Origin: a virus
DNA: 62,693 nt
Reading direction: 5' to 3' (one strand)
IMG/VR virus record: IMGVR_UViG_3300049259_000169
Coordinates: 1 to 62,693 of that record
Shown: positions 30,680-60,256 of the stretch, piece after piece
Layout of the letters: the number at the start of each line of letters is the position of its first letter
Numbering within the stretch: position 1 is the first letter of the stretch
Notes under the pieces: model-generated
Told to the model about the DNA's origin: nothing
Seen by the model: only the letters and a program-made list of their open reading frames with translations
Database searches by the model: none
Made by a program: the position numbers and the translations under genes

Positions 30680-30880
30680 ATGACCACGGACAGAGAGGCG
30701 CTGGCGCGAGACGTCATCGAGCGCATGGATGTAGCCCGGCTACGACTGGATGAGGCCGGGATCCTGATGGACCGAGCGAAGGCCGTGCTGATCGACACCA
30801 TCGCCGAGCACAACGCGGCGCTGGAGGCGCTGGCGGCGATCACCGACGAGGCCGCCACACTGCTGGAGGAGGCACCGTGA
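30680..30880 (+). CDS. small helical protein
   Basis: 66 aa, one or two long helices (VIERMDVARLRLDEAGILMD, VLIDTIAEHNAALEALAAIT). Overlaps the initiator gene start. Function unknown. Confidence 0.55.
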   Translation: MTTDREALARDVIERMDVARLRLDEAGILMDRAKAVLIDTIAEHNAALEALAAITDEAATLLEEAP

Positions 30881-31683
30881 GCGGCCGGCCGCGGCGAGCA
30901 TTCGGCATCGTGTCCAAGGTGGTGATGCGGACGCCCGGCATCCCGCTGGGGAGCAAGGCGCTGTACGCGTTGCTCTGCTCGTACGCCGATGACGACGGCT
31001 GCTGCCATCCGTCGAACGAGACGCTGGCGGCCGACCTGGGGGTGTCCGAGTCCTCGGTCGCGAGGGGTCTGCGGACGCTGGCGGACTGGAAGCTGATCGT
31101 CCGGGAGGACCGGTTCGTCGAGAACCGGCAGACCACTTCGGTCACTCGGATCACTGATCTGGACGTCGCTGAGATGACTACCCGCCCTGTCACTGACGAC
31201 ACCCCCGAGGGTGGCATGGGTGACAACCCCGGGGGTGTCACTGGTGACAACCAGAACAACACCACCATGAACGGAACCAGTACGAACACACCGTCACCTG
31301 CCGGTGACGAAGGGTCGCAGGACGGACTCTCCAGCGAGGACGAGCTGTTCGAGGACTTCTGGACCCACTACCCGAGGAAGGTCTCGAAGAAGGATGCGAG
31401 GGCGGCGTTCGCGAAGGCGTTGAAGGCCGTCGACTACCTCACCATCCGGGCCGGTCTCGTCGGTGCGATCAAGGCGTGGCGAGCGGAGGGCAAGGTCGTG
31501 GTCGAGAAGGTCGGCGACGACCTCAAGGTCAAGGCCGAGGTCGGCGAACTGGGCAAGGGCATTCCCCATGCTGCGACCTGGCTCAACGGGGAGCGGTGGA
31601 ATGACGAGCACCCGGAGGCCAAGGTGGCCGCCGGACAGAACGGAGAGGATGAGAACGCATGGATGACGCGGAGAGCGGACTGA
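30877..31683 (+). CDS. helix-turn-helix replication initiator-like protein
   Basis: 268 aa, GTG start. Residues ~10-75 form a winged helix-turn-helix (GSKALYALLCSYADDDGCC, LAADLGVSESSVARGLRTL, WKLIVRED) as in phage and plasmid replication initiators. A disordered Thr/Asp/Asn linker follows. The C-terminal module (FWTHYPRKVSKKDARAAFAK ... ATWLNGERW) is typical of phage replisome-loading proteins. Likely binds the origin and recruits the helicase encoded 1.5 kb downstream. Confidence 0.8.
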   Translation: MSGRPRRAFGIVSKVVMRTPGIPLGSKALYALLCSYADDDGCCHPSNETLAADLGVSESSVARGLRTLADWKLIVREDRFVENRQTTSVTRITDLDVAEMTTRPVTDDTPEGGMGDNPGGVTGDNQNNTTMNGTSTNTPSPAGDEGSQDGLSSEDELFEDFWTHYPRKVSKKDARAAFAKALKAVDYLTIRAGLVGAIKAWRAEGKVVVEKVGDDLKVKAEVGELGKGIPHAATWLNGERWNDEHPEAKVAAGQNGEDENAWMTRRAD

Positions 31684-32858: not shown

Positions 32859-33149
32859 GTGGGCAAGAAGGACGAGGTCCCCAAGCCGGAGGGCTTCGAC
32901 ACCCACCCGCTGGTGGTGTGCATCGACGGACCGAAGGCGGCGTCCTGGTACTTCGAGGACTACGGGTCGGGATCGTGGGCCGAGCAGGTGCGGCTGGCGG
33001 CGCTGGGCCAGACGCCCCGTTCCACGATCCTCGGCTACGTCGACTCGGGGAAGTCGGTGCCGCACCCGCGGTGGCCGGAGGTCAGTGGCAAGGCGCTGGT
33101 GTGGCGTCCCGAGCAGCAGGGAGGAGGAGCGAGTGGATCAAACCCATGA
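32859..33149 (+). CDS. hypothetical protein before helicase
   Basis: 96 aa, GTG start. Small alpha/beta protein (VVCIDGPKAASWYFEDYG) resembling short proteins often placed before phage helicases. Overlaps the helicase start by 17 bases. Function unknown. Confidence 0.6.
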   Translation: MGKKDEVPKPEGFDTHPLVVCIDGPKAASWYFEDYGSGSWAEQVRLAALGQTPRSTILGYVDSGKSVPHPRWPEVSGKALVWRPEQQGGGASGSNP

Positions 33150-34380
33150 CGGCGCGGCGGAGAAGGCGGTACTGGCCTGCTGCCTGGGCTCGAAGCTGGC
33201 TCGCGACAGGACCCGCGCCGCACTGTCCGGCGGCGACTTCTACGAACCGCTGCACGAGGAGGTGTGGGACGCCATGAACCGGCTCGACCGTCAGGACATG
33301 GCGGTCGACGGGCCGGCGCTGCTGGCGGTGGTTCCGCAGCACAATCGTCAGCGGGCGGGCCAGTTGCTGGTCGACCTGGTCACCTACCCGGTGTCCGCGG
33401 AGTCGGTGACCACGCACTGCGCCCACGTCCGGCAGTGGGCACAGAAGCGGCGACTGTGGGGGGAGACGCTGCGGGCTCAGCAGGAGATCATGCGCGACAA
33501 CGTCGACATCGTCGGCCTCGCGGCCTCCACGGCGGCGAGGTTCGCGGCCGTCCGAGATGCGGGTGGTGTCGACGACGACATCGAGGCGATGACGCTCGAT
33601 GAGATCATGCTCGAGGTGCCGGAGGACCCGGACTGGGTCATTCCCGGATTCCTGGAACGTGGCGATCGGTTTCTCTTGACCGCCGCCGAGGGCGCGGGCA
33701 AGTCGCACTGGACCCGGCAGGTAGCGATCATGGCGTCCGCGGGCCTCGACCCGTTCCGGCCATGGCGGCACATCCGACCGGTGCGCGGGATGATCATCGA
33801 CTTCGAGAACAGCAAGCGGCAGATCCGGCGCCGGACCGAGGCGACGTACGGCTACGCGGTCAACCACGGCCGCGGAGCAGCGGGCCTGGCGACGGTGCTG
33901 AACATGGGTCGGTCCGACATCACCCAGGACCGGGTGCTGAACAAGATCCACCGCGAGCTCGATGCCTGCCAGCCGGAGGTGCTGGCCATCGGGCCGCTCT
34001 ACAAGATGTCCCCGAAGGCGTTGCAGACCGACGACGAGGCGGGACCGGTGCTGGCAGCACTGGACACCATCCGGGAGCGAGGGATCGCGATCCTGATCGA
34101 GGCGCACGCGGGCCACGTGATGGGCGCCGGACGGAGGCGGGACCTGCGGCCGCGCGGTTCGGCGGCGCTGATGGGCTGGCCGGAGTTCGGCTACGGCATG
34201 ACCCGGGTGGGGGAGAAGTCCGCGGTGCTGACGGCGTGGCGCGGCGACCGTGACGAGCGGACCTTCCCGATGGCGCTGGTGGAGAACGGATGGGGGTGGG
34301 AGGAGGAGCGGGCCACGACCGTGCAGGACGTGTGGCGACCGCGACAGGACTGGACCGATCTGGCGTACGACGAGGAGTGA
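33133..34380 (+). CDS. replicative helicase, DnaB-N plus RepA-type ATPase
   Basis: 415 aa from GTG 33133, which has GGAGGAGCGA upstream. Residues 1-120 match the DnaB N-terminal helical domain (EKAVLACCLGS, FYEPLHEEVWDAM). The ATPase has Walker A AAEGAGKSHW (about 184-193), Walker B MIIDFEN (~218) and a further VLAIGPLYKM strand. The core is closer to RepA/AAA_25 than to full DnaB. Unwinds DNA at the phage fork; works with the initiator and SSB. Confidence 0.8.
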   Translation: MDQTHDGAAEKAVLACCLGSKLARDRTRAALSGGDFYEPLHEEVWDAMNRLDRQDMAVDGPALLAVVPQHNRQRAGQLLVDLVTYPVSAESVTTHCAHVRQWAQKRRLWGETLRAQQEIMRDNVDIVGLAASTAARFAAVRDAGGVDDDIEAMTLDEIMLEVPEDPDWVIPGFLERGDRFLLTAAEGAGKSHWTRQVAIMASAGLDPFRPWRHIRPVRGMIIDFENSKRQIRRRTEATYGYAVNHGRGAAGLATVLNMGRSDITQDRVLNKIHRELDACQPEVLAIGPLYKMSPKALQTDDEAGPVLAALDTIRERGIAILIEAHAGHVMGAGRRRDLRPRGSAALMGWPEFGYGMTRVGEKSAVLTAWRGDRDERTFPMALVENGWGWEEERATTVQDVWRPRQDWTDLAYDEE

Positions 34381-36544: not shown

Positions 36545-37306
36545 ATGACGACGACTGAAACGGTTCCTGCGGCCGCCGCGGTGCCCACGGTGTACGAGGC
36601 GTGGGCACGGGTGATGCAGCAGGCGCTGGCGCTCGGCAAGGGACAGCAGTACGACGGCGGCGAGGGCGGTGGCCGGTTCCGCTTTCGCGGCATCGACGAC
36701 GTGATGAACCTCGTGGGCCCGATCCTTCGACTCGAGGGAGTCTCGGTGATCCCGTCGGTGCGGACCGCGAACTACCGGGACGTGATGACCCGGGGCAACA
36801 AGCCGTCGCGGGAGGTGACGGTGCTGGTGGACTATACGATCACCGGTCCGGCCGGCGACACCATGTTCGGCTCCGCCCCCGGCGAGTCGATGGACACCGG
36901 CGACAAGGGCACTGCCAAGGCGATGTCGGTGGCGTTCCGGGTGTTCCTCCTCCAGGCCCTGTGCCTGCCCACCGACGAGCCCGACCCTGACTCGGAGGTC
37001 TTCCAGCGCGCTGCCGGCCCGACCCCGGAGCAGCAGGCCCAGAAGGTCGCCGACGGCCTGCCCGAGTCGGTGTCGTTCGCGCAGGTCGACGGGGTGAAGC
37101 GCTGGGCCGCTGAGCGTGGTCTGCTCGACGTCCCGGTGACCGACCCGGACGGCAACCGACTCGCGCCGCTGCTGGTCCTGCTGAACGCGAAGCTCGATGA
37201 GCACGCAGCCAACGAGCCGGCGATGCAGCAGGCCCGGCAGGCCAACGTGGACAAGGCCCTCGGCGGGGGCGGCGAGCCGACCGCCGATCACACGGAGGCG
37301 AACTGA
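36545..37306 (+). CDS. erf: ERF-family single-strand annealing protein
   Basis: 253 aa. ERF core: VYEAWARVMQQALALGKGQQ, FRFRGIDDVMNLVGPILR, VTVLVDYTITGPAG, GESMDTGDKGTAKAMSVAFR. Anneals complementary single strands in phage recombination. The C-terminal ~80 residues form a separate helical domain with a Gly/Glu-rich end. Works with the Cas4/RecB-like nuclease 1.3 kb downstream and the SSBs. Confidence 0.85.
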   Translation: MTTTETVPAAAAVPTVYEAWARVMQQALALGKGQQYDGGEGGGRFRFRGIDDVMNLVGPILRLEGVSVIPSVRTANYRDVMTRGNKPSREVTVLVDYTITGPAGDTMFGSAPGESMDTGDKGTAKAMSVAFRVFLLQALCLPTDEPDPDSEVFQRAAGPTPEQQAQKVADGLPESVSFAQVDGVKRWAAERGLLDVPVTDPDGNRLAPLLVLLNAKLDEHAANEPAMQQARQANVDKALGGGGEPTADHTEAN

Positions 37307-38155: not shown

Positions 38156-38604
38156 TGATCTGGTTGCTGTACGTCTCCGAGGCGGCGTTGGTGGTGGCCG
38201 CCATTGCGCTGGTGCCATGGATGAAGCGGGAGGGGGACCGCAGCTGGCGGGCTCACTGTGTGGCTACGCGCTTCCGGACCATGATGGCCGGAGTGACCGA
38301 GCGGATGGGACACCTCGCCGCCGAGATGCAGAAGATGACCGAGCCTGCGCGACGCGCGGCGGATCGTCTCGGTGCACTGGTGCTGACATTCGCGAGCGCG
38401 ACCGTCCCGCCTCCTGGGCTGCGCCCACGGGGACTGCGCGCCGGGCGGGTTGTGGCCGGCCGACGGCTGACCCGGGTGGAGGTGACCCATCGCGAGCTGG
38501 TGACGGCGCTGGGCTACACCGAGTCGCCCACCATGGCAGCGGAGATGTGGCCGATCGCTGAACGGATCGCGACCGCGATTCGAGTGAACGAGAGGGAGGG
38601 CTGA
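38155..38604 (+). CDS. membrane-anchored helical protein
   Basis: 149 aa. Residues 2-21 (IWLLYVSEAALVVAAIALV) form a membrane anchor; the rest is helical and basic. Function unknown. Confidence 0.55.
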   Translation: MIWLLYVSEAALVVAAIALVPWMKREGDRSWRAHCVATRFRTMMAGVTERMGHLAAEMQKMTEPARRAADRLGALVLTFASATVPPPGLRPRGLRAGRVVAGRRLTRVEVTHRELVTALGYTESPTMAAEMWPIAERIATAIRVNEREG

Positions 38605-40676
38605 TGGCGGTCGAGATCTGCCTGCCGTGCAGGAACGAGCGGCACCTCGACTGCGTGCTGACGGTCGAGGAGAACGAGGCTCCGTGTGACTGTTCGCACG
38701 GGGTGATGTCGGAGGACGAGCACCTGCTGGCCAAGCAGATCTACGAGGCGATCCAGCAGCACGCGGCCGACACGGACCGGTCGCGGCACGCGGCCGAGTT
38801 CAAGCTCGGCATCTCCGACGTCGGGTACTGCCCGGAGCGGCTGCGCCGGACCCTCGACAATCAGGTCCCGGAGGGCACCGACATGCTGGCGGCGGTCATC
38901 GGACAGGCGGTCGGCAAGGAGGTGGAGGAGGCGCTCAAGGCCCAGCTGTGGCCCGACGCGATCCTCCAGGCGGAGGTGATGCTGCGGCTACGCATCCAGG
39001 GCAAGGTCTACAACCTGCCCGGCCACCCGGACATCATCCGGCCGGACTGGGGGATCCTCGACGGAAAGGGTCTCGCGCTCAACACGCTCCTGCCCGTCCC
39101 GAACGGCTGGACCGCGATGGGCGACCTCCGGGTGGGCGATGAGGTCTACGACCGTGACGGAGCGCGGACCCGCGTGACGTTCAAGTCGGAGGTCAAGAAC
39201 ATCGACTGTTGGCGGGTCACGTTCCGTACCGGCGAGCAGGTGATCTGCGACGACGAGCACCGGTGGGTCGTGGTTGACCGCAAGGGTCACGAGCGCGTCG
39301 AGACCGCGTCGTGGATCGCCGAACAGCGGCAGGCGGGTCGCGCGGTCACGGTGCCCGTGCTCGCGGACGCCTGCGCGGGCGACCCCGGGGTGCCGGCGTT
39401 GGATCCATGGCTGCTGGGCTACTGGGTCGGCAATGGCCAGCGCTGCATGCCCCGGGTGACCGCGAACCTCGCGGACGCTGAGGAGGTCCACCGGCGCGTG
39501 ACGAGGCTCGGGTGGCGGGCGACTGTGACCCCCGACAAGAGAGGCTCTCAGGCCGCGTTGCTCACCATCCAGACGAACGAGGTGAAGCGGCGTGCCGATG
39601 GCCGAATGGTACGCAGTAACCAGTTCCGCCTGGAGCTGGAGGCGCTGGGCATCTTCGAGACTAAGGGCTTCCCGGTCCAGTACCTCCGGGCATCGCCCTC
39701 CGACCGGAAGATGCTGCTGCGGGGACTCATGGACTCCGACGGAACCTGGAACAAGGCACGTCGTCGGGTGTCGTTCACATCCACGACCGAGTCGGTAGCG
39801 CTCGGGCTCGCCGAGCTGGCGCGATCGCTCGGCGAGCGAGTTCAGTACAACGCCCACCTCGCGCACGGCTACGGGAAAGAGGTCCAGGCGCATGTCGTCG
39901 AGTGGACGCCGTCGTTCAATCCGTTCGCGCTGACCAGGAAGGGATCGAAGGTGCAGGTTCGTGAGGCTCAGCGCCACGCCATCGCGTCGGTCGAGCGGGT
40001 CGAGTCGGTACCAACTCAGTGCATCGCGGTGGACTCGCCGACCAAGACCTATCTGTGTTCGGAGGGGTGGATCCCGACCCACAACACCGACTTCGGCCTG
40101 TCCGCGATCGAGAGGGACGGCCCGTCGTTCCAGCAGCAGTTCCAGCGGCACGCCTATGGGCTGGCCGCGTTCGAGGCCGGCCACTTCCCGGACCTCGCAC
40201 TGGAGGACGTCATGGTCGGGAACTTCTGGCTCGACCGGGGCGCCGTGGAGAAGCGGGTCCACGTCCAGTTCGAATCCTTCAACCCGGAGATCATCGACCG
40301 TGGGATCGACGAGCTCGAGTCGGTGGTCTACGCCTACCTGAACGAAGAGGAAGCGGAGAAGCGGCCCCCTCGGGAGGTTTGCCGGGTGACCTGTGGCTAC
40401 TTCGCGAAGTGCCGGGAGTGGGAGACTGACGTGTCGGGCCTGCTCGACGACCCGGACGCGGTGTCGGCGATCCTCGCGTACGTCGAGGGCCGCAACCTGA
40501 CCACCCGCGGTGACAAGCTCAAGCGGGAGGCAAAGGCGAAGCTGGACGGGATCTCTGGGTCCACGGGAGAGTGGCTGCTGCGGCAGACGTGGACGAACCC
40601 GACCGAGGTCCCAGCGTCGAAGCGCAAGGGCCACTACCGGATCGACATCAAGCCGGTGCGGAAGGTCGACGGATGA
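38604..40676 (+). CDS. Cas4/RecB-type nuclease interrupted by a class 3 intein
   Basis: 690 aa precursor, about 353 aa after splicing. The N-terminus has a Cys cluster (CLPCRNERHLDC ... CDC). GHPDII and ILDGK are the PD-(D/E)xK nuclease residues, with the intein right after the Lys motif. Cys in GYCPERLRR and the late CRVTCGYFAKCREW likely hold an iron-sulfur cluster as in Cas4/AddB. Predicted to resect DNA ends and feed ERF. The intein runs from A158 to N494. Confidence 0.85.
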   Translation: MAVEICLPCRNERHLDCVLTVEENEAPCDCSHGVMSEDEHLLAKQIYEAIQQHAADTDRSRHAAEFKLGISDVGYCPERLRRTLDNQVPEGTDMLAAVIGQAVGKEVEEALKAQLWPDAILQAEVMLRLRIQGKVYNLPGHPDIIRPDWGILDGKGLALNTLLPVPNGWTAMGDLRVGDEVYDRDGARTRVTFKSEVKNIDCWRVTFRTGEQVICDDEHRWVVVDRKGHERVETASWIAEQRQAGRAVTVPVLADACAGDPGVPALDPWLLGYWVGNGQRCMPRVTANLADAEEVHRRVTRLGWRATVTPDKRGSQAALLTIQTNEVKRRADGRMVRSNQFRLELEALGIFETKGFPVQYLRASPSDRKMLLRGLMDSDGTWNKARRRVSFTSTTESVALGLAELARSLGERVQYNAHLAHGYGKEVQAHVVEWTPSFNPFALTRKGSKVQVREAQRHAIASVERVESVPTQCIAVDSPTKTYLCSEGWIPTHNTDFGLSAIERDGPSFQQQFQRHAYGLAAFEAGHFPDLALEDVMVGNFWLDRGAVEKRVHVQFESFNPEIIDRGIDELESVVYAYLNEEEAEKRPPREVCRVTCGYFAKCREWETDVSGLLDDPDAVSAILAYVEGRNLTTRGDKLKREAKAKLDGISGSTGEWLLRQTWTNPTEVPASKRKGHYRIDIKPVRKVDG
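39075..40085 (+). mobile_element. class 3 intein with LAGLIDADG homing endonuclease
   Basis: 337 residues. It starts with Ala (A158), not Cys or Ser, has Trp in the block-B segment DDEHRW (W221), a block-F Cys in PTQCIAVDSP (C473), and Thr as the first residue after the THN end. This W-C-T set defines class 3 inteins. LLGYWVGNG (270-278) and LLRGLMDSDG (371-380) are the two LAGLIDADG helices; the first has lost its usual acidic residue, the second keeps Asp. It sits in the nuclease active-site motif. Confidence 0.85.
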
Positions 40677-45228: not shown

Positions 45229-45495
45229 TCAGCTCGGGCGGACCGAGCGGCGATCGAGGCCGTCGCCCCAGGACACCTGGAGGCCCGCCTCGTGATTGAG
45301 GCGCCGGGTCATGGCCAGGATGTCCTTGCGGGAGTGCCGGCGCAGGTCCATCGCGGCGTCGATCTGGCCGGTGAGCCGTGCGTCGAAGTACGCGCGGCTG
45401 TACGCGGCCTCCAGCTCCCGCTCCACCAGCTGTTCGATCTCCAGCAGGTAGAGCAGCCGCTCCAGCGGGTCGTCCGGCGGATCGAGTTCCAGCAT
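45229..45495 (-). CDS. hypothetical helical protein
   Basis: 88 aa from ATG 45495. Acidic helical start (LERLLYLLEIEQLVERELEA), basic end. Last gene of the late minus-strand operon. Function unknown. Confidence 0.55.
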   Translation of the reverse strand: MLELDPPDDPLERLLYLLEIEQLVERELEAAYSRAYFDARLTGQIDAAMDLRRHSRKDILAMTRRLNHEAGLQVSWGDGLDRRSVRPS

Positions 45496-45767
45496 CACTC
45501 GGTCTGCGACTCGGTCTGCGACTCGGTCTGCGACTCGGTCTGCGACGCGGCGGTCGATCGTGCCAGCTCCTCGGCGTGACGTCGGAGCTCGGCGTTCTCG
45601 GCCAGCAGGCCGTCCACCTGAACGGCCAGCTGGACGGCCAGGTCCAGTATCGCGACCAGCCGGTCGGCGTCCTCGCGGTGGCGCTTGGCGACCCCCAGGT
45701 CGCTGCGCAGCTGGTCGGCGAGGCCGGCCCTCGGCTTGCTCGGGGGGCTGCTCGGGGGATTGTTCAC
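45495..45767 (-). CDS. coiled-coil protein with SQTE repeats
   Basis: 90 aa from GTG 45767 (GGAGG upstream). Pro/Ser start, coiled-coil middle (VDGLLAENAELRRHAEELA), and a C-terminal Ser-Gln-Thr-Glu repeat of four copies. Overlaps the next gene by one base. Confidence 0.6.
   Translation of the reverse strand: MNNPPSSPPSKPRAGLADQLRSDLGVAKRHREDADRLVAILDLAVQLAVQVDGLLAENAELRRHAEELARSTAASQTESQTESQTESQTE
45497..45544. repeat. four exact copies of a 12-base unit
   Basis: ACTCGGTCTGCG four times in frame, coding the SQTE tail on the minus strand. Confidence 0.9.
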
Positions 45768-45817
45768 GGGTACCTCCGGAGTGTGCGTTCGACCCAGCCT
45801 GTCACGACGGCGCGCGC

Positions 45818-46012
45818 TCAACCATCCAGCTCGCCGAGCGTCGCCTGGAGGGTGGCGAGGTTGCCGCCGTCCGAGAGGTACTGCTGGGCGATCATCCGCA
45901 GGTCGTCCGGAGCCTTGGAGACCCGGTTGCGCTGCGCCTGGAGGGCCGCGATGTCGCCGGCCAGCGTGGCCAGCTCCTCGTCGGTGTACCCCGAGAAGTC
46001 GATGTCGTCCAT
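45818..46012 (-). CDS. small hypothetical tail-operon protein
   Basis: 64 aa from ATG 46012. Helical with DDIDFSGYTDEELATLAGDI. Directly follows the collar-domain gene. May be a chaperone or accessory for it; unproven. Confidence 0.55.
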   Translation of the reverse strand: MDDIDFSGYTDEELATLAGDIAALQAQRNRVSKAPDDLRMIAQQYLSDGGNLATLQATLGELDG

Positions 46013-46028
46013 GCCTGCCCGCTCCTGT

Positions 46029-47699
46029 CTACCTTGCCCTGATGATGAAGTTGACGCCGTAGTACCCGGCCGTGTTGGTCCCGGTGGTGTCGTCCTCAAT
46101 GGCGGTCTGTCCGCCGTGGTCATGGGTGCCCCCGTTGCTGATCGGGTGGGTGTGGTTCGGACCGGCGGCGGCGACTCCACCGGCCGCGCGGTCCACCGTG
46201 CCCGAGGGGTCGCCGGTGTTGCCACCGTGGTCGTGGCTGCCATCGTCGGCGATGTCGTGGCGGTGCCCGAGGGTGATGTGGCTGTGGGCGACCGGGTTGC
46301 GCAGCCCCAGCGCACGGCCCTCGGTGCCGCCCAGAGCCACCTCGGTGCCGACACCGACCGGCTGGCGGTCGCGCAGGTCCGGGAGGACGTTGGTCCCGAG
46401 CAGGGCGTACAGGTCGGGATAGGTGGACGACGAGAACGTCGACCCGTCGCACTTGAGCCAGCCCGACGGGATGCTCGAGATGACCCACGCCACGATCCCG
46501 CCGACCGGGATCGTGCCCCGGCCGACGAACACGGGCGCCTGGAACTCCACCGTCGTGGCGAGTACGCCGGTACCGCCGGCCAGGAAGCTGTCGATGGCGC
46601 CGGTGTCGTCGTACCAGATGATGGTGGCGGAGTCGAAGAACGGGCGGCCGATCTCGATGTGCGCGTCGGAGGCGTCGCCGGTCTGGAGCCACCCGCCGGC
46701 CCACAGTCCCCCGCGCAGGAGAATCGACCCGTCGGTCGCCGAGATCAGGACCGTCTCGTCGCCCGCCGCGTCGAAGGCGAGGAACCCGAGGTTGTTCATC
46801 TTGACTCCGACGTCCGGGTCGGCGTCGGTCTGCACGGTTCCGCCGGTCACGGTCGAGCCGGAGATGTCGGCACCCGCGAAGATGGAGCCGGTGGTGGTCA
46901 GGAAGCCGTCGGAGGAGTCGATGGTGGTGACCGCGACCCCGGAGGCGTCGTAGGCGACCAGGCCGAAGGGCGAGATCACCACGTTCGGAAAGGTGGTGGT
47001 CGGGTTGGAGATCAGCCACGACTGGGTCGCGTCCACCCAGGCGGACCCGTTCCACCGGTAGGGCCGGTTGGTGTCGTCGCTGTCGAACCACGTGTCGTTG
47101 GTGACCAGCACGCGGCCGTTGCTGTCGGGGTCGGTCGGTGGGGTTGCCTGCTGGTAGCGCTTGTTCAGCGACTCGGCCAGGTGGAGGGCGTTCCCACCGT
47201 CCTCGAGCGCCTGGTCGATGTCGTCGCGGACGTCGGGGTGGAGGTCGTCCTCCTCGACGAACCCGGACCGGGTGGCGAACCGCTGCCACTCCCCGAAGAT
47301 GGGCGGCCCGTCCGGGTCGACGGGGTTCGGGGCGTAGTTGCGGACCCGGAAGTACATGGACCCCGGGTCATCGGTGTTCCACATCTGCTGGGTGCCGGTG
47401 CCGTCCTGGCGGGCGATCACCGTGCCGATCCAGGAGAGCAGGATCGGCTCGTCGTCCTCGTCAAGGATCACGGGCGCGTTCTGGCCCCCGGCGCTGACGT
47501 AGAAGAAGCCGTTGAAGGTAGCGACTTCGTCGTTCAGGTCGAGGATGTGCACCGCCTGCGAAGACATGCCGGGGCCCAGCAGGTCGGCGGCCGAGATCGG
47601 CGAGGCGTTGCGGGCCTGCCGGTCGACCCGGCGGGTCAGCAGCCGCAGGGAGTCGTACCCAGTGACGGCAATGGGCCATGAGCTACTGCTGCTCGACAT
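46029..47699 (-). CDS. minor tail protein with tail-collar domain
   Basis: 556 aa. The C-terminal third is a phage tail collar domain: IPVGGIVAWVISSIPSGWLK, DGSTFSSSTYPDLYALLG and DLRDRQPVGVG, then His-rich repeats (HSHITLGHRHDI, HDHGGNT, HTHPISNGGTHDHGG) that may bind iron. The middle is beta-rich. Likely a distal fibre or baseplate tip protein. Lies next to the glycine-rich tail protein. Confidence 0.75.
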   Translation of the reverse strand: MSSSSSSWPIAVTGYDSLRLLTRRVDRQARNASPISAADLLGPGMSSQAVHILDLNDEVATFNGFFYVSAGGQNAPVILDEDDEPILLSWIGTVIARQDGTGTQQMWNTDDPGSMYFRVRNYAPNPVDPDGPPIFGEWQRFATRSGFVEEDDLHPDVRDDIDQALEDGGNALHLAESLNKRYQQATPPTDPDSNGRVLVTNDTWFDSDDTNRPYRWNGSAWVDATQSWLISNPTTTFPNVVISPFGLVAYDASGVAVTTIDSSDGFLTTTGSIFAGADISGSTVTGGTVQTDADPDVGVKMNNLGFLAFDAAGDETVLISATDGSILLRGGLWAGGWLQTGDASDAHIEIGRPFFDSATIIWYDDTGAIDSFLAGGTGVLATTVEFQAPVFVGRGTIPVGGIVAWVISSIPSGWLKCDGSTFSSSTYPDLYALLGTNVLPDLRDRQPVGVGTEVALGGTEGRALGLRNPVAHSHITLGHRHDIADDGSHDHGGNTGDPSGTVDRAAGGVAAAGPNHTHPISNGGTHDHGGQTAIEDDTTGTNTAGYYGVNFIIRAR

Positions 47700-47702
47700 G
47701 GC

Positions 47703-50618
47703 TCACCCCGCCTCTTCGGCCGCAGCCTCGTCGGCGTCCGGGTCGTTCCCGTCGTTCGGCGCCGCCGACATGGTGACCGCGATCTTCTCGCCGTTCGCGT
47801 CCTGGGTGACGCCGATCGCGTCGAGCTTCTGCCACTGCGCCACGTCGCGGACCCCGCTCGAGGACCGGACCGGAATCCAGACGCCCGGGATCAGCTGGTT
47901 GATGCCCAGGTTGACGTCCGGCGACAGGGTCGAGTTGTCGGGGACGCGCACCACCAGCGGCGCCGGGCCGTAGGTGGTGTAGCGGCCGCCGATGTTGCGG
48001 GTCGCCTGCGCGGTCAGCGTCGCCACCAGGCGCTTGCGGGCCTCGCGAGTGAGGGTCTGCTCGGTGCCGGCGCCCTCGGACTCGCCGTACGCCGAGTCGA
48101 GCATCTCGACGAAGCCCTCGGGGCCGAGGGGGACGTGGTCGGCATCGACGCCGCGGTAGGCGATGCCGTAGATCCCGTTGTTGTTGGTCACCGCCAGCAC
48201 GTTGGCGAGCTCCATCCCGTACTCGGTCACCACCGGCGGGTCGGAGAAGTCGCCGTCGCCCATCTCGGGCAGCCGGCCGACGGGCCGATGGGTGTCGTTC
48301 AGGAGGATCCGGCGCCCGGCAGTGGTGTAGTCGAGGCCGGCGTGCGCGGCGAGGTCGTCGACCTCCTCCCATGCGGTGGACGAGAAGTCCTTGCGGACCC
48401 GGGAGTTCTTGGCGTCGCCGACGTTGTCGAGGATCGTCAGGTAGGGCAGCACGTTCGGGTCGTCGTACGCCAGCGCGTTGAGGATGATCTGCGCACCCCG
48501 GTTCACCACCGTGGTGAGGCCCAGCTGCTCGCCATTGACGACCTGGTAGTTGTCGGCGTACCCCTGGCGCATGATGCGGCGGTAGACGTAGGCCATCACG
48601 TCCTTGAACTCGATCTCGATGCGGTCCTTCGACGCCGCGATCCGGGTGATCGGCCCCTCGAAGACCCGGACGCTGTCCCGGAAGACCACGACCTCGTGCT
48701 GCCACGTTCGCAGCGAACCGAGGAACAGCCGACCCTCGTCGTCCCACTGGTTGATGATCAGGGAGCCGCCGGAGATGTCGTCGCGCTTGCGGTTCCAGTT
48801 GATCGTGGTGAGGGGCTTGAGCTCGCCGATCAGGGTCTCGCCGCCGCGCGCGTAGACGAACGCCCGGTTGGCGCCCATCCCCAGCGGGTCCTGGGGCCGG
48901 CCCGAGGAGATGACCTCGAGACCGGCGCCGGAGCCGGGGGTGCGGGCGGTCCAGAAGTAGGCTTCCTCGGACCAGTCGGAGGTCTTGGCCGTGGTGCCGA
49001 TGGTGCGGACCTGGTAGGCGTAGAGGAACTCGGTCTCGAACGTGCCGGGGTCCATGTCCCAGAACTGGTCGGAGCCCGGGGTGGTCACGTCGCCGAAGAT
49101 GGTCTCCCAGTCGCCCGGGATGCCGCCGAAGACGCGGTAGCGGAAGTCGGCGTGGTGCTGGCTGACCCCGACCTCGGGGTCCCGGAACTTCCACCGGAAC
49201 CGGTTGGTGCGGCTCGCGACGATCGCCGTGCCCTTGTCGGGGGAGAGGATCAGCGGGGGCGTGGTGCTGGCCAGGACGTAGAACGACCGCGGGAACGCCC
49301 ACTCGCCCCAGGCGTTCTGCGCGTCTCGGGTGCGGACCTGCCACTCGTAGAAGGTGTTGCCCTTGAAGGTGCCGGCGTCGATGGTCCACGTCTCGTCGTC
49401 GCCGGTGTGCACGTCGGTGGCGACCCACTCGCCCGCGTCCGAGATCGGGGTCGCGGCCTTGCGGTAGCGCAGCTGCCAGGCGGCCTGAGGGTCGGAGGGG
49501 TCCGGGTCAGAGGCGTTCCAGGTGAAGGTGACGTTCAGCAGTGCCGAGACCTGCGAGTTGTCGGCGGGACTGGTCAGGGCGGGCGCGTTCGGCGGCCGGT
49601 TGGTCCAGAAGTTCGTCGACGTGTAGTCGTGGGAGAGGCGGCCGTTGATGTCCTGGGTGTAGATCCGCAGGTAGTACCGGGTGTTCTGGTCGAGGCCGGT
49701 GATCGTGGCCTTGTCCCGCTCCTCGGACTCGTCGTAGGTGCCGTGCCAGACGGAGTGGTCGGCGAAGTCGCTGGTCTTCGACCGCCAGATCAGCATCCGC
49801 ACGCCACGGGTCGAGTTCGGGTCGTTCGGGGTGCCGCGCACCACCACCTGGGTGGTGGCCTTGGTCGCCAGTCCATCGGCTATCGGGTGGCCGTCGATGG
49901 TGATGCTCGCGGGCGGGACCGGCGGGTTCACGGCCGACCAGGTCAGGGTGACCGAGCCGTGGGTGTCGGCGCCGCTGCTGCCACGGAACGACGCAGCGCC
50001 GAACATGCCCTCGATGTAGTTCGAGCCCCCGGCGCCGCCGACGCCCGGGGCATCCCCGGCCCTGCCTGCGGCTCCACCACCGCCCGGGTAGAACCCGCCA
50101 CCGCCGCCACCGCCGCCGCGTACGTCCGCGGCGTTCGGCTGAGCGCCGCCGCCACCGTCCCCGAGACGGGCCTGCTCTCCGTCGCCACCCCAGTACGCCT
50201 TGCCCAGCTCGGAGGTGCCGCCCTTGCCGGCCTGGTTCTGGGTGCCGCCCGTCGACGCGGCGGTGTCACCGGCTCCAGCGCCGCCACGGGAGCCACCCTC
50301 GCCCTGGCCGGCACCGCCTCGTCCGCCCTCGCCACCGTCGCCCGAGGCCCCGCCGGCACCGCCGGCCACCGCCCGGATGGTCCCGGTGCGCTTGTTGAGC
50401 CGGATCGAGGAGGCGCCACCGCCGCCCCAGCCGCCGGCCGAGCCGCCGTCACCGTCGCCACCACGGCCGCCGCCACCGAAGCACTTCCCGCCGCCGTTGC
50501 GGCCCGAGGGTGCGAACCCCTTGCGTCCGACCTCGATCCAGAGTGCGTCCTGGCCCTTGACCCGGATGGAGCCGGTGACCTTGCCGCCCTGGGTGTTGTG
50601 CGAGTCCCCACCGCGCAC
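47703..50618 (-). CDS. glycine-rich minor tail protein with fibronectin-like domains
   Basis: 971 aa from GTG 50618. The first ~200 residues are extremely Gly-rich; then two to three fibronectin type III-like units (SPADNSQVSALLNVTFTWNA, WQVRTRDAQNAWGEWAF), then a tail-protein domain of ~450 residues. Forms part of the tail tip. The usual family opening, a strand before the Gly part (THTFEYTGEGVRWAIPDDVE), is encoded upstream of this GTG, in frame, but only an ATC follows the previous TAG. See findings. Confidence 0.75.
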   Translation of the reverse strand: MRGGDSHNTQGGKVTGSIRVKGQDALWIEVGRKGFAPSGRNGGGKCFGGGGRGGDGDGGSAGGWGGGGASSIRLNKRTGTIRAVAGGAGGASGDGGEGGRGGAGQGEGGSRGGAGAGDTAASTGGTQNQAGKGGTSELGKAYWGGDGEQARLGDGGGGAQPNAADVRGGGGGGGGFYPGGGGAAGRAGDAPGVGGAGGSNYIEGMFGAASFRGSSGADTHGSVTLTWSAVNPPVPPASITIDGHPIADGLATKATTQVVVRGTPNDPNSTRGVRMLIWRSKTSDFADHSVWHGTYDESEERDKATITGLDQNTRYYLRIYTQDINGRLSHDYTSTNFWTNRPPNAPALTSPADNSQVSALLNVTFTWNASDPDPSDPQAAWQLRYRKAATPISDAGEWVATDVHTGDDETWTIDAGTFKGNTFYEWQVRTRDAQNAWGEWAFPRSFYVLASTTPPLILSPDKGTAIVASRTNRFRWKFRDPEVGVSQHHADFRYRVFGGIPGDWETIFGDVTTPGSDQFWDMDPGTFETEFLYAYQVRTIGTTAKTSDWSEEAYFWTARTPGSGAGLEVISSGRPQDPLGMGANRAFVYARGGETLIGELKPLTTINWNRKRDDISGGSLIINQWDDEGRLFLGSLRTWQHEVVVFRDSVRVFEGPITRIAASKDRIEIEFKDVMAYVYRRIMRQGYADNYQVVNGEQLGLTTVVNRGAQIILNALAYDDPNVLPYLTILDNVGDAKNSRVRKDFSSTAWEEVDDLAAHAGLDYTTAGRRILLNDTHRPVGRLPEMGDGDFSDPPVVTEYGMELANVLAVTNNNGIYGIAYRGVDADHVPLGPEGFVEMLDSAYGESEGAGTEQTLTREARKRLVATLTAQATRNIGGRYTTYGPAPLVVRVPDNSTLSPDVNLGINQLIPGVWIPVRSSSGVRDVAQWQKLDAIGVTQDANGEKIAVTMSAAPNDGNDPDADEAAAEEAG

Positions 50619-50708
50619 GACGACGTCTACGACCTCGACGTCGTCGGGGATGGCCCAGCGAACGCCTTCGCCGGTGTACTCGAACGTGTGGGTGGGGATG
50701 GCGGGCTC

Positions 50709-52082
50709 CTAGTAGTTCCGGGGCGTGAGCGACAGGTCGATGACCGGCACCGCCTCGTCCTCGAGCATGTCGAAGGTGACCACGTACCCGTAGCCGCAGG
50801 AGAGCACCGGCCAGCGGACCGGTGTCGAGTCGTTGGCGAACACCAGGGAGTCGGCGCGACGTCGGTGACCGAGGGAGTCGATGACGTAGATCTCCTCACC
50901 GGGCCCGTCGAAGACCAGGGTGCCGCCGACCGGGATGTAGGACAGGACGAAGTCGCCGATGTAGTCGCACGGATTCTCCTCCGGGTCGAAGTCACCGTCC
51001 GGGTCCGGGTAGAAGCGGACGCGGAGGTTCCGCAGACCCTCCTCGGAGTGCACGGTGATCGTCGGGGCGACCATGCCCCACAGGGGGATGTTCAGCTCCG
51101 GGATCGCCAGCTTGACGCGCTGCCACGTCTCCGGCGGCGTGTAGCACCCGATCGGCACCGACGGCGGAGTCGGCGGCTCGACCATCGCGTTGCACAGCGG
51201 GTCGTAGATGGGTGCCCAGAGGTCGGTGCCGCACTCGACCTCGGTGAACAGGTACGGCTCGGTGGTGTAGAAGCCCTGGATGGCCCCGGGGACCCAGGGG
51301 TTCTCGACATCGGGGTCCAGGTACCCCTGCACGAGTCCCTTCTCGGCCCCGAAGGTGTACGCCGACCCGGCGACCCCGGTGAACTGCACGATCCACATCG
51401 CGCCGCCGCAGCCGCTCATGTTGGTCTTGCGCTGCACGATGGGGCCGGCGTTGAAGACGACGTTGCGCCAGAACCGCTGGTAGTCCCGCAGTACCGCGTC
51501 CACCTCGACGGGCTCGGGGGCGATGTCCCAGGGGAATCCGCCGTCGACGTAGCCGACACCGTCGGTGGTGGGGTCGATCAGGTCCACACCGTCCGGGAGC
51601 ACCGGGCTGGCCGAGAGGAAGCCGAGCTGCTTGCCGAACGAGTTGGTGGTGACCAGCTGGCTGGAGCACAGTGCCCCGAGCAACGCGCGGCGCAGCCAGG
51701 CCGCCCCGTAGTCGCAGGCGTCGTCGTCGGACCCCAGCAGCATGGCCTGGATCACGACCGCCTTGGTGCCGTGGCGGAGCCGGCCCGGGGAGCCGCCGTC
51801 GGTGGTGAACTCGGTGACGGTGGAGCCGCGGGAGGAGTCGTCGAGCCCGTCGATCGAGATCGGGTAGACGCCCCAGAAGTTGCCGGACCGCGGGTCGTCC
51901 GCGTCGTACCAGGGGGCCGGGTCGAACACCGGGGTCGAGTACGGGTCCTGGCCGAGCAGGGTCGGGATGACCTCGTTCTTGAAGGCGGGGTAGAACCACG
52001 ACGCGCGAGCGGCGTACGCCTCCGTGCGCGTGGTGTTGATGATCTCCGTGTCGTCGAAGAACAGCAGACCGTCCCAGCTCAT
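50709..52082 (-). CDS. distal tail/minor tail protein
   Basis: 457 aa. Starts MSWDGLLFFDDTEIINTTRT; the fold and position directly after the tape measure match the minor tail (Dit-like) proteins of actinophages. Several Cys residues. Its TAG stop is in the same frame as the downstream glycine-rich gene. Confidence 0.7.
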   Translation of the reverse strand: MSWDGLLFFDDTEIINTTRTEAYAARASWFYPAFKNEVIPTLLGQDPYSTPVFDPAPWYDADDPRSGNFWGVYPISIDGLDDSSRGSTVTEFTTDGGSPGRLRHGTKAVVIQAMLLGSDDDACDYGAAWLRRALLGALCSSQLVTTNSFGKQLGFLSASPVLPDGVDLIDPTTDGVGYVDGGFPWDIAPEPVEVDAVLRDYQRFWRNVVFNAGPIVQRKTNMSGCGGAMWIVQFTGVAGSAYTFGAEKGLVQGYLDPDVENPWVPGAIQGFYTTEPYLFTEVECGTDLWAPIYDPLCNAMVEPPTPPSVPIGCYTPPETWQRVKLAIPELNIPLWGMVAPTITVHSEEGLRNLRVRFYPDPDGDFDPEENPCDYIGDFVLSYIPVGGTLVFDGPGEEIYVIDSLGHRRRADSLVFANDSTPVRWPVLSCGYGYVVTFDMLEDEAVPVIDLSLTPRNY

Positions 52083-52090
52083 CCGTCCTC

Positions 52091-54580
52091 CTAGAACAGG
52101 GCCTTGGCGGCGAAGTCGTTGATGACCTCGCGAGCCACGATGTACGGGTTGGGCCCCTGCGTGACGATCGTCCAGCCGGAGGCGTCGACACCCCGGTGAC
52201 CCATGCCCTGGGCGATGGCCGAGAGTGCGCGGACCGAAGGATCGACCATGCCGAGAGGCCGGTTCAGGGGCACGATGGCCTCGGGCCCGTCCTCACCGAT
52301 CCACCGCAGCTGCGGGCCGCTGGTGACGCCACCGAGGCCACCCGAGGCGTTGCCCTTGATGCCGTCGATCGCGCCGTGGATGAAGTCACCGAGGCCGCCG
52401 CCAGGAGCCTTGATCAGCGAGCCGATATCGATGGTCCCGATGGCGGACAGGATCTTGCCCGCCAGCCCGACGAAGCTGGCCGCGATGTCCTCCACGATCC
52501 CCTTCGCGTTGTCCACGATGTCGGTGAACAGGTGCTTGATCTCCGACCAGATGCTGCCGATGGCGTTGCCGATGCGGACCGGCAGCTTACCGAACCAGTC
52601 GGCGATCCGGCCGGAGATGGAGATTGCCCGGTCGACCAGCCGGGAGAACAGAGACGCAGCCCGGCCGGGCAGGTCGGCGAGGAAGGACATGATCTTGCCC
52701 GGCAGCAACGCGAACCAGCGGATGATGCGGCCGACAACGAGGCCCGCGTTGTAGGCGAGGTTGTCGGTGACCCGGTGCCACAGGCCGGGGATCTTGGAGA
52801 TGATCCCCTCGATCTGGCCCGGAAGCCGGCGGAAGAAGCCGACGATCCGGTGGGTGGCGTCGCCGACGACGGAGGCAGCGTGGGAGATGACCCCACCGAG
52901 GTCGTGGAACAGGTCGATCACCTTGCCCCACCCCTCGAGAATCCAGGCAGCCGCCGTGCCGAAGTAGGTCCGGATGGCCTCGCCCACGGTGGACACGATC
53001 GGAGCCAGATCGGTAAGGACGACCAGAACCTTCTCGAAGGTGTCGAACAGGAAGGCCAGGAACTCGCGCGACTCGGGAGTGTCCAGCCTGCCGATGGCCT
53101 CGCCGATGTCGACGATGGCGTTGCCGATCTGCTCAGCGACATCGATCCCGTTGGAGAAGAAGTCCTTGATCGCGTCCTGGTTCTTCGGGTCCGTCAGGTA
53201 CTCGGTGAACCGCTGGAGCTGGTCACCGGCCTCTCGGAACAGGGAGTCGCCGGACCGCTTGCCGGCCGAGAGCAGCTGGGCGGTGGCCTCGATCGCGTCG
53301 TGGATGAACCCACCGATGGCCTTGGCGGAGACGGCCGCCCGGTGGAAGAAGTCGGCGAGCTCGCTCTGCCCCGACTTGCTGTTGGCCCACTCGTTGAAGC
53401 GGTCGGCGGCATCGGTCAGGAAGCCCAGGAACCGCTGGGTGATCGGGATCGCGGCGCGCATGATGCCGCCGATACCGCCCAGGGTGTCCCCAGCGATGGC
53501 CCCCAGCTTGCGCAGGGCGTGGGGGATGAAGTCGGAGAAGGCCGCCATGAACTGCTTGAAGCCGCTGGACTGGGTCATCTCGGCCCAGCCGTCGACGACG
53601 TCACCGAGAGCCGAACCGACCCGGCGGAAGAAGGGGGCCAGCCCGTCTAGCGCCGGCCCAGCCTTGTCGAGAGCCGCGGCGAGCTTGGGCCCGAAGGCTT
53701 CGCCGGCGGCATCCCCGGCCTCCTTGAACTTCTTGATCAGCGGGTTGACCGACTTGAAGATCGTCTTCCGGGTCTGGTCGTCCATGCCGACCAGGGCGGC
53801 GACCACGACCCCGATGCCGACGGCAAGGGGGCCGACCAGCGCGAGGGCCACGGCGCCGATGGCGCCGGCCGCAAAGGTGGCCGAGGCGACCAGCCCGATC
53901 AAGGCGGCGGCAAGCCCGGAGACCAAGGTGGCGGCGGCTCCGAGGACCGTGATCAGGGCGCCGACGCCGACCACGATGCCGACGATCGAGGTGCCCACCT
54001 GGGTGGCGATCTTGGCGAGGTCCATCCCCTCGCCGGAACTCTTGCCGGTGAAGACGCCGACCAGCTTCTCCGCGACCTTGGGTGCCACGGCGCCGAGCCG
54101 GGAGAGGCCCTCGATCGCGGCGCCGATGAAGTTGACCAGGTCGTTGCGGGACCCCTTGCCGAACATCTTCCCGGTCCGCGCGGCCGACCTGTCCAGCTCC
54201 TCGTTCACCAGCACCAGCTTGGAGTGGAAGCGCTGCAGCCAGTTGTGGTCGACCCGGTCGTTGTCCTCGGCGATGGCCTTGAGTCGCTGGAGCCCCATCT
54301 CGAGGCGCTGGGCAGCATCCTTCGTCTGGTCCCAGTCCTTGAGGCCCTTGGCCAGCTCGTCGCGGAAGCCGCCGAGGAAGGTGTCGGCGGACGTGCGGCT
54401 ATTCTTCTTCGACTCCCGGTCGAACCACTCGGAGTACGCCTTGGAGTGCTCCTCCCCGGCCTCCTTGAACTTCGGGGTCATCTTGTCGAGGGCGTCGCCG
54501 ATGTCGTCCGGGACATCGTCGCCGTTGGCGTGCAGCGACACAAAGGCCCGGCCCACGTTCTCACCGCCGAGTCCGAACAC
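52091..54580 (-). CDS. tape measure protein
   Basis: 829 aa. Sets tail length and crosses the membrane at DNA entry. Long helical sequence, a hydrophobic segment at about 195-265 (VGVGALITVLGAAATLVSGL, AALIGLVASATFAAGAIG), and heptad-like repeats later. It lies between the tail chaperones and the minor tail proteins as expected. By its length the tail should be medium-long (~100 nm, rough inference). Confidence 0.9.
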   Translation of the reverse strand: MFGLGGENVGRAFVSLHANGDDVPDDIGDALDKMTPKFKEAGEEHSKAYSEWFDRESKKNSRTSADTFLGGFRDELAKGLKDWDQTKDAAQRLEMGLQRLKAIAEDNDRVDHNWLQRFHSKLVLVNEELDRSAARTGKMFGKGSRNDLVNFIGAAIEGLSRLGAVAPKVAEKLVGVFTGKSSGEGMDLAKIATQVGTSIVGIVVGVGALITVLGAAATLVSGLAAALIGLVASATFAAGAIGAVALALVGPLAVGIGVVVAALVGMDDQTRKTIFKSVNPLIKKFKEAGDAAGEAFGPKLAAALDKAGPALDGLAPFFRRVGSALGDVVDGWAEMTQSSGFKQFMAAFSDFIPHALRKLGAIAGDTLGGIGGIMRAAIPITQRFLGFLTDAADRFNEWANSKSGQSELADFFHRAAVSAKAIGGFIHDAIEATAQLLSAGKRSGDSLFREAGDQLQRFTEYLTDPKNQDAIKDFFSNGIDVAEQIGNAIVDIGEAIGRLDTPESREFLAFLFDTFEKVLVVLTDLAPIVSTVGEAIRTYFGTAAAWILEGWGKVIDLFHDLGGVISHAASVVGDATHRIVGFFRRLPGQIEGIISKIPGLWHRVTDNLAYNAGLVVGRIIRWFALLPGKIMSFLADLPGRAASLFSRLVDRAISISGRIADWFGKLPVRIGNAIGSIWSEIKHLFTDIVDNAKGIVEDIAASFVGLAGKILSAIGTIDIGSLIKAPGGGLGDFIHGAIDGIKGNASGGLGGVTSGPQLRWIGEDGPEAIVPLNRPLGMVDPSVRALSAIAQGMGHRGVDASGWTIVTQGPNPYIVAREVINDFAAKALF

Positions 54581-54589
54581 CTGCCGCTC

Positions 54590-54883
54590 CTACGTGTAGT
54601 CCCCGATGAAGTCCTGGTCGTCCTCCGGCTCGCTGCCCCCGGGGAGAGCGGCGTTCAGGAGGTAGTCAAACTCGGCGAAGGTCGGCTCCGGACCCGCCTC
54701 CCCGCGCAGCTCGCGCTCGTGCTGGTACCAGCGACGCGCGTTCTCCACGTAGAGGATGTTGAGGAGCTTGCGCCACGGCAGCCGCAGCAGGTCCACGGTC
54801 GGGTGCTCGGCGTCGAGCGTGATCCAGTTGGCGTCGGCGAACGCCAGGAGTCGGATCACGCCTTGGTAGGGCGCGCACTCCAC
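54590..54883 (-). CDS. tail assembly chaperone, frameshift part
   Basis: 97 aa open frame from a GTG at 54883, in the -1 frame relative to the upstream chaperone, overlapping its last 28 bases. In siphoviruses this part is made as a fusion by a programmed -1 shift. No classic slippery heptamer is visible in the overlap; the shift may use the stretch CGCGCCCTACCAAGG. A separate start is possible. Confidence 0.7.
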   Translation of the reverse strand: MECAPYQGVIRLLAFADANWITLDAEHPTVDLLRLPWRKLLNILYVENARRWYQHERELRGEAGPEPTFAEFDYLLNAALPGGSEPEDDQDFIGDYT

Positions 54884-55206
54884 TCCTCGAGCATGTCGGC
54901 CAAGATCCCGTCGTCGCCGTGCTCGCCGAACAGGGTCTTGGGTCCGAGCAGGCCGTTCTGGACCATCTGGATGATCCAGTCCTGGTCCTTCGGTTCGATC
55001 ACGGTGGCGAACAGGTCGACGATCGCCGCCAGCTTCTGGATGGGGGGTACGTGCCGTCCGGTGGCCGCGAGCAGCAACAGGGCCTCACCGGCGCCGGGCT
55101 TGCGGTAGTTCACGACGCGGTCGTCGAGGGTGAAGTCGTAGGGGTACTCGAGGTCGATGGCTTCGGCGGTGACGTCAGCGACCTCGCTGGTGAATACCTT
55201 GCCCAT
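54856..55206 (-). CDS. tail assembly chaperone
   Basis: 116 aa. MGKVFTSEVADV..., then FTLDDRVVNYRKPGAGEALL and a helical end. Size and place just before the tape measure are those of lambda gpG-type chaperones, which keep the tape measure soluble. AGGAG precedes the ATG. Confidence 0.75.
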   Translation of the reverse strand: MGKVFTSEVADVTAEAIDLEYPYDFTLDDRVVNYRKPGAGEALLLLAATGRHVPPIQKLAAIVDLFATVIEPKDQDWIIQMVQNGLLGPKTLFGEHGDDGILADMLEEWSARPTKA

Positions 55207-55264
55207 GTCGTGCTCCTCCGTTGGTGGCTGTCCGAGCAGCAGGGTACGGCGGCCGAGCCGTTGC

Positions 55265-55297
55265 GCGCGCCTGCCCCCGAATCGGGGGGAGGCGCGC
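55265..55297 (-). terminator. strong nested hairpin
   Basis: GCGCGCCT/AGGCGCGC enclosing CCCCCGA/TCGGGGG, beginning at the stop codon of the 55297-55785 gene. No T-run. Could lower expression of downstream tail genes. Confidence 0.5.
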
Positions 55298-55785
55298 TAG
55301 TAGAGGGCGAACCGACCCATGGAGGAGTGGGCGCGTGCGGTCTCGTTCCATGCGCGCCGCAGGAACGGGTTGGCGGACTGGCCGCGGACGCGCTGGCGCC
55401 ACCGGGCGGCACCGTAGCCGGGGTTCGCCGGCAGGTAGAGGCCCTCGCCGGCCGAGGCCGCCCCGAACTGGCCGCCGGCCCGCCGGGCGAAGATCATGCC
55501 GGTGCCCTCGTGGACGTAGGCGGCGTAGTCGGTGTTCGCGGAGAACTCGATGTTGTAGCGGCGCAGCGTCACCTGCTGGAGCTCGGACCGGATCGACGCC
55601 TTGAGCGACCCGACCGGGGGCTGGCCGTAGGTCTTGTTCTGCCGCTTGTTCAGCGGCGCCTCGCGGAAGCCGTAGGAGAGCAGCGAGTGCTCGATCGAGC
55701 GCGCCCAGCGACCGAAGGCGCCGGTCGGGGTGAACAGCACCTCGTCGGTGACGACCTTGCCGGTGAGGACGTACGTGAAGCCCAT
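55297..55785 (-). CDS. HK97 gp10-like neck/tail-completion protein
   Basis: 162 aa. The pattern ...YVHEGTGMIF...G...ARRAWNE near the end fits HK97 gp10-type neck proteins (YAAYVHEGTG, PFLRRAWNETARAH). Joins head and tail. Five bases after the preceding gene. Confidence 0.65.
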   Translation of the reverse strand: MGFTYVLTGKVVTDEVLFTPTGAFGRWARSIEHSLLSYGFREAPLNKRQNKTYGQPPVGSLKASIRSELQQVTLRRYNIEFSANTDYAAYVHEGTGMIFARRAGGQFGAASAGEGLYLPANPGYGAARWRQRVRGQSANPFLRRAWNETARAHSSMGRFALY

Positions 55786-55789
55786 CGGG

Positions 55790-56287
55790 TCACTCGATCT
55801 GCATCGCGATGGAGATCGCGCCGCCGTAGAGGTCGCCCTCGGGGCCGATCGGCCGGTAGTTGCCGACCACGAACTGGTTCGCGTCCCACGACGCTCCGGT
55901 GCAGCACGCCAGGGCCCGCTCCATGGAGCCGATGTCCTCCATCTGCCGGGTCGACATGGCCAGCAGCTGGTCGCTGGTGTAGTTCCCGTTCTTGGGGACC
56001 GAGTGGCAGCGCAGGACGCCCATCTCGATCAGGACGGTGCGGCCGTGGGTGGCGTTGTACGGCAGCAGGGACTGGACGCCGGGAGTGTTCGAGGGGAAGT
56101 AGTCGGCCACCCGCGCCCAGGCCAGCTCCTGGCCAACGCCGGCGTACGCCTGGCCTGGGTAGACGCCCGGGATCGGGATGCACAGGCACAGTGGCGGCCC
56201 CTCGGCACCCTCCGGCGTCAGCTGGGCGCAGAGACAGCCCTGGAGGTCGGTGAGCAGCGCGATGATCTTGTCGTCCGGCTCGGGCAT
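55790..56287 (-). CDS. head-tail connector, possibly tail terminator
   Basis: 165 aa. Begins with a helix and two Cys pairs (GCLCAQ, LCLCIPIPG). Alternating strands in the second half. Position between neck genes suggests tail terminator or head closure; not certain which. Confidence 0.5.
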   Translation of the reverse strand: MPEPDDKIIALLTDLQGCLCAQLTPEGAEGPPLCLCIPIPGVYPGQAYAGVGQELAWARVADYFPSNTPGVQSLLPYNATHGRTVLIEMGVLRCHSVPKNGNYTSDQLLAMSTRQMEDIGSMERALACCTGASWDANQFVVGNYRPIGPEGDLYGGAISIAMQIE

Positions 56288-56312
56288 GGTCGCAGTCTCC
56301 CACCCTGAGGGC

Positions 56313-60192: not shown

Positions 60193-60212
60193 CGGGTCCC
60201 TCCTCTCCTGAG

Positions 60213-60256
60213 ACTGGCCTCGCCGCCCCGGACAGCTACGGAGCGGCGAGGCCAGT
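60213..60256 (-). terminator. hairpin after major tail gene
   Basis: Perfect 14-base stem (60213-60226 with 60243-60256), 16-base loop. Just after the major tail protein; may trim transcripts so that capsid and tube genes are expressed most. Confidence 0.7.

Follow-up and report, generated by a model that had tools for sequence, protein, structure and literature searches.

A class 3 intein, its homing endonuclease probably disabled, between the catalytic lysine and a threonine of a phage PD-(D/E)XK exonuclease

A 690-codon open reading frame at positions 38604-40676 (plus strand) of the window, by which we mean the whole stretch of viral DNA analysed here (IMG/VR record IMGVR_UViG_3300049259_000169, 62,693 nt), contains a class 3 intein that interrupts a PD-(D/E)XK exonuclease. 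The locus raises the question of how an intein came to occupy a catalytic motif, whether it is still mobile, and whether its position serves the phage or only the intein. An earlier note on this DNA had described a class 3 intein in the active-site motif of a Cas4/RecB-like nuclease and had suggested that splicing could time the exonuclease. Our analysis confirms that the gene product belongs to the Cas4/RecB/RecE superfamily of PD-(D/E)XK exonucleases and that the class 3 intein in it is complete and includes a LAGLIDADG endonuclease domain. We consider it very probable that this is a phage exonuclease precursor with a spliceable intein between Lys155 and Thr495, that the intein arrived by homing and its endonuclease is probably disabled, and that an ERF protein is the probable partner of the nuclease. 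The features on which the discussion draws, all on the plus strand, are the following.

36545-37306, plus strand: single-strand annealing protein of the ERF type, lying 1.3 kb upstream (Pfam ERF, 9.4e-13; PHROG 155, 4e-30)
38604-39068, plus strand: N-extein, residues 1-155, with nuclease motifs GHPD (D143) and LDGK (D153, K155) and the first conserved cysteine, C76
39069-40085, plus strand: class 3 intein, residues 156-494, 339 aa (boundaries from intein-free relatives and same-site inteins; profile; structural model)
39258-39266, plus strand: motif B, with H219 (B:10), R220 and W221 (B:12, the W of WCT); H and W invariant in 81/81 class 3 inteins
39405-39872, plus strand: LAGLIDADG homing endonuclease domain, approximately residues 268-423 (Pfam Hom_end and LAGLIDADG_3; PI-SceI aligned over 265-420; AlphaFold, Foldseek)
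39432-39434, plus strand: Asn277, which replaces the catalytic Asp of the first LAGLIDADG motif (LLGYWVGNG) in the alignment to PI-SceI (D218)
39738-39740, plus strand: Asp379 of the second LAGLIDADG motif (LLRGLMDSDG), intact; D in 81/81 inteins
40020-40022, plus strand: Cys473, motif F:4, the class 3 initiating nucleophile; invariant in 81/81
40077-40085, plus strand: T492-H493-N494, motif G:5-G:7 (the T of WCT and the terminal Asn); invariant in 81/81
40086-40673, plus strand: C-extein, residues 495-690, starting with Thr+1, with QxxxY (Q514, Y518), cysteines C593, C597 and C603 and the PHROG exonuclease match

The identity of the intein is borne out by several lines of evidence. A profile built from 40 class 3 inteins matches the open reading frame over all 336 model positions (E 1.8e-103), a match that is partly circular as the profile includes the present intein. 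When the translated frame was compared with PDB sequences using phmmer, class 3 DnaB inteins ranked first (6rix, E 7.6e-19), and the top matches comprised the class 3 DnaB inteins 6rix, 6riy and 6bs8 together with the PI-SceI endonuclease. Class 3 inteins are defined by Trp at B:12, Cys at F:4 and Thr at G:5 and by the lack of a nucleophile at position 1 (PMC3196547, PMC5050341). The WCT triplet is present here as W221, C473 and T492, and position 1 is Gly156, with no Cys, Ser or Thr nucleophile there. W221 and C473 lie where the earlier note had placed them, whereas the class-defining threonine is not the Thr+1 that it had named but T492 (G:5) of the THN motif; T495 is the +1 nucleophile (acceptor) and the first residue of the C-extein. 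None of H219, W221, C473, T492, H493 and N494 varies across the 81 class 3 inteins in the comparison. The AlphaFold model of the intein has a pLDDT of 94.1 and a pTM of 0.91, and with Foldseek it matched PI-SceI at E 1.1e-18 and, at E about 1e-8, class 3 DnaB inteins, the HINT splicing fold matching 6bs8 and 6rix at TMt 0.81-0.86. A search of the whole 62,693-nt window with the class 3 intein profile revealed no second intein.

Both halves of the nuclease flank the intein, with D143, D153 and K155 on one side and Q514 and Y518 on the other. Their assignment to a Cas4/RecB-like nuclease holds: comparison of the spliced sequence with PHROG gives exonuclease families at 1.1e-30 and 7e-9, and Pfam Cas_Cas4 and PDDEXK_1 score above cut-off for the intein-free relative L010, although a Pfam search with the window's own spliced nuclease sequence gave no match. 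In the family alignment the residues of motifs D, DxK and QxxxY (D143, D153, K155, Q514, Y518) are invariant, and so are four cysteines, one N-terminal (C76) and three C-terminal (C593, C597, C603), which are candidate ligands of a putative Fe-S cluster of the Cas4 type. The fold matches RecE, LHK-Exo, lambda Exo, Cas4 and AddAB; the model compared is that of the intein-free relative L104 rather than of the window's exteins, and is of moderate quality (pLDDT 69.5). Since the ERF annealing protein is encoded upstream of the nuclease, the two likely form an exonuclease/annealing-protein recombination pair like RecE/RecT. The surroundings also encode a replication initiation protein (30877-31683) and a DnaB-like helicase (33085-34380), which, though a common intein host, contains no intein according to the profile search of the window. 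The protein encoded at 41521-42444 matches PHROG 6247 'DNA topoisomerase' (6e-99) with no Pfam match, and its nearest relative, from L111, is 73% identical. Positions 45378-62692 hold large plus-strand open reading frames (767, 1319, 541, 444, 788 and 720 aa), but long antisense frames are also open across this region and both the gene calls and the functions are uncertain; these plus-strand frames have no PHROG match at 1e-3 and no Pfam match.

Looking for intein-free alleles among relatives, as the earlier note had proposed, proved fruitful. All other members of the window's nuclease subfamily that we found lack the intein: 15 GenBank records of phages whose match runs along the gene (five of them inspected by alignment), and 18 IMG/VR loci (L101-L110 and L010-L017). 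The DxK-S/T sequence is intact at the insertion point (marked here and below by the hyphen after Lys) in the 18 IMG/VR loci, in the Arthrobacter Tank-like phages and in Kithara. A search of genome contigs with the extein alignment retrieved no relative, and the contig of L111, with the topoisomerase-like neighbour, ends at extein residue 228. Intein-free relatives read DGK-SK, DLK-SK or DWK-TS at the junction, where the window's frame reads DGK, then the intein (GLALNT...THN), then TD. As intein-free relatives align without gaps across DGK-TD (Ranunculus DGK-SK, L010 DWK-TS) and same-site inteins (Frankenweenie, Traft412, L021-L027, L031) begin with GLxLDT right after D-x-K, the intein starts at Gly156. 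The insertion therefore does follow the conserved DGK directly, at the K155/G156 junction, as had been proposed; the start at Ala158, however, was two residues too late, for GL would then remain between DGK and T, two residues that no intein-free relative has there. The expected products, previously put at about 337 and 353 aa, become a 339-aa intein and a 351-aa spliced nuclease. Two other readings of the gene were rejected. It is not a terminase gene: its PHROG terminase matches cover the intein only, because those profiles contain intein-bearing terminases. The designation 'HNH endonuclease', which GenBank gives to the C1 mycobacteriophage intein-bearing nuclease (L004:2620-4383 and other C1 homologues), is not supported either, and the search for an HNH motif in PMC5050341 was likewise negative.

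With these boundaries, a splicing pathway can be proposed from the known class 3 chemistry, all residues required for it being present. C473 would attack the K155-G156 bond, Thr495 would then take over the N-extein, and cyclisation of Asn494 would release the 339-aa intein. The exteins would join as ...LDGK-TDFGL..., giving the predicted junction peptide ILDGKTDFGLSAIER and an intact 351-aa nuclease. That the unspliced precursor is inactive is a sound inference from the layout, as the insert separates the DxK strand (D143/D153/K155) from the QxxxY helix (Q514/Y518). Splicing is a prediction from sequence, and no observation contradicts the intein itself.

How did the intein reach this site? 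Class 3 inteins at DxK-T are also found in other phage nucleases, namely those of Frankenweenie and Traft412 and of loci L021-L027, L031, L037 and L043. Counting L031 (CDWK) and L037 (TDWK) as DxK-site inteins, all of these form one clade with the window's intein, with support of 97/92 without L037 and 88/94 with it. Because the window's branch is long (1.57), its membership in the clade is less certain than these values suggest, and trees of the endonuclease or the splicing domain alone neither confirm nor reject the clade (p-AU 0.94 and 0.87). The exteins of the DxK-site inteins are mostly unalignable by BLASTP. The RecB intein of C1 mycobacteriophages occupies the equivalent site but belongs to another lineage, being sister to L044 (100/99); inteins have therefore entered the position between the catalytic Lys and Thr at least twice, independently. 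More broadly, the intein lies between Lys and Thr/Ser in 63 of the 80 IMG/VR class 3 loci (L021-L100), mostly at Walker A-like GK-T/S or nuclease DxK-T sites, and it is tempting to speculate that shared Lys-Thr codons may let one intein lineage move between unrelated hosts. The window's intein most likely arrived by homing, from a class 3 lineage specialised on the DxK-T codons of phage nucleases.

Whether the intein can still home depends on its endonuclease. Pfam Hom_end and LAGLIDADG_3 both score above cut-off within the intein, indicating a two-motif LAGLIDADG domain. Asn277 of motif 1 aligns with D218 of PI-SceI (chain numbering of the printed alignment), which we take to be the catalytic aspartate, so that only the second motif, with Asp379, retains its acidic residue. 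Asp occupies the motif-1 position in 76 of 81 class 3 inteins, the exceptions being the window, L076, L095 and L096 (all Asn) and L100 (Ala). We found no publication naming D218N of PI-SceI. In the PhoVMA intein, loss of the Block C/E acids in both motifs accompanied loss of cleavage, and grafting the acids back restored some activity (PMC8966425). The domain has also diverged: identity to the clade averages 51.5% in the splicing domain, as among other members, but only 34.7% in the endonuclease, a ratio of 0.67 compared with 0.80-0.93 in ten clade members. By median path in single-part trees the window ranks second of 81 in endonuclease divergence and 27th in splicing-domain divergence; by the ratio of the two it ranks ninth of 81, so its endonuclease divergence is high but not unique. 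This pattern is suggestive of relaxed constraint, although an endonuclease of different origin could possibly produce it too. Taken together, the endonuclease is probably inactive or much weakened through the change of D to N in its first motif. The Asn may leave some activity, and an intein kept mobile by cleavage or nicking with Asn277 is an alternative to which we would give a minor but real chance: the fold of the domain is predicted intact with high confidence, Asp379 is in place, and Asn recurs at this position in L076, L095 and L096. Yet the replaced residue is at the position of a catalytic acid of the kind missing from the inactive PhoVMA endonuclease, and the domain is far more diverged than the splicing domain next to it.

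Decay of the endonuclease should not be confused with decay of the whole element. A splicing-dead relic in a pseudogene has a precedent in the class 3 intein of Arthrobacter FB24, which lost C F:4 and H B:10 (PMC3196547). Here none of the splicing residues has been lost, the reading frame runs uninterrupted over its 690 codons, the splicing domain has retained a normal identity to the clade and both exteins keep all their motifs; a relic is thus the least credible reading of the locus, its chance close to nil. Given a probably disabled endonuclease, the present copy of the intein has probably been inherited vertically and no longer homes. The flanks of the insertion site are identical to the intein-free alleles in hand at only 16-26 of 42 nt, too diverged for a homing partner to be named. 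In other lineages, the inteins of L076, L095, L096 and L100, where Asn or Ala replaces the motif-1 Asp, may likewise carry a disabled homing endonuclease.

An intein that has stayed in an active site although its endonuclease looks disabled invites a regulatory explanation, in which the intein is kept because it splices slowly, or only on a signal such as redox state or metal, and so holds back the exonuclease until it is required. An unspliced precursor should indeed be inactive, and mycobacterial DnaB inteins that splice conditionally have been described (PMC6195587, PMC7360933, PMC8557812). On the other hand, all splicing residues, including the penultimate His, are consensus, and splicing was fast in those terminase inteins that were assayed in PMC5050341. 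The intein is also dispensable, intein-free relatives being the rule in the window's nuclease family, and once the endonuclease is lost the intein should persist in any case, since its imprecise excision would ruin the nuclease. We therefore regard such a switch as quite improbable, and the narrower proposal, that a homing-dead class 3 intein was retained at a nuclease active site since conditional splicing regulates the nuclease, as slightly more so. Nothing in these data supports the suggestion that splicing serves as a timer of the exonuclease. That a homing element settled on the codons conserved most strongly is enough to account for where the intein sits, with no regulatory role needed.

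Class 3 inteins in this nuclease site are already known. Kelley et al. (mBio, 2016) reported 40 inteins in the PD-(D/E)XK motif of Cas4/RecB-like exonucleases of C1 mycobacteriophages, treated them among class 3 and discussed regulation (PMC5050341). These exonucleases (for example Ronan gp210, L004) likewise carry a class 3 intein with a LAGLIDADG domain after the catalytic Lys and before Thr. They differ from the window in that their intein falls outside its clade, grouping with L044, whose intein is not at a DxK site, in that the motif-1 Asp is intact, and in that the C1 extein is not alignable to the window's by BLASTP. Closer in lineage are the inteins of two Cas4-family exonucleases, Mycobacterium phage Traft412 gp72 and Streptomyces phage Frankenweenie gp79, which share the insertion point (D-Y/W-K-T) and the clade, at about 40% identity, but retain an intact GDG motif and reside in other nuclease subfamilies with no BLASTP match to the window's extein. 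The Frankenweenie record (L002:2680-4515) notes 'Cas4 exonuclease and intron'; the insert there is an intein. The class 3 DnaB inteins of Mycobacterium (PDB 6bs8, 6rix) have the same splicing blocks and fold, whereas their host is the DnaB helicase and their solved chains, of 139-146 residues, have no endonuclease domain. The exteins, in turn, belong to the same nuclease subfamily as Arthrobacter Tank gp60, Rizwana gp60 and Ranunculus gp72, to which they are 31-32% identical over the whole length; those exonucleases carry no intein and read D-G/L-K-S at the site. What is new in the window is therefore a different nuclease subfamily, to which occupation of the DxK catalytic motif by inteins is now extended, and a probably disabled homing endonuclease. 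The D to N change makes this intein a candidate for an element that has stopped homing while still able to splice, with which one could examine why such elements persist.
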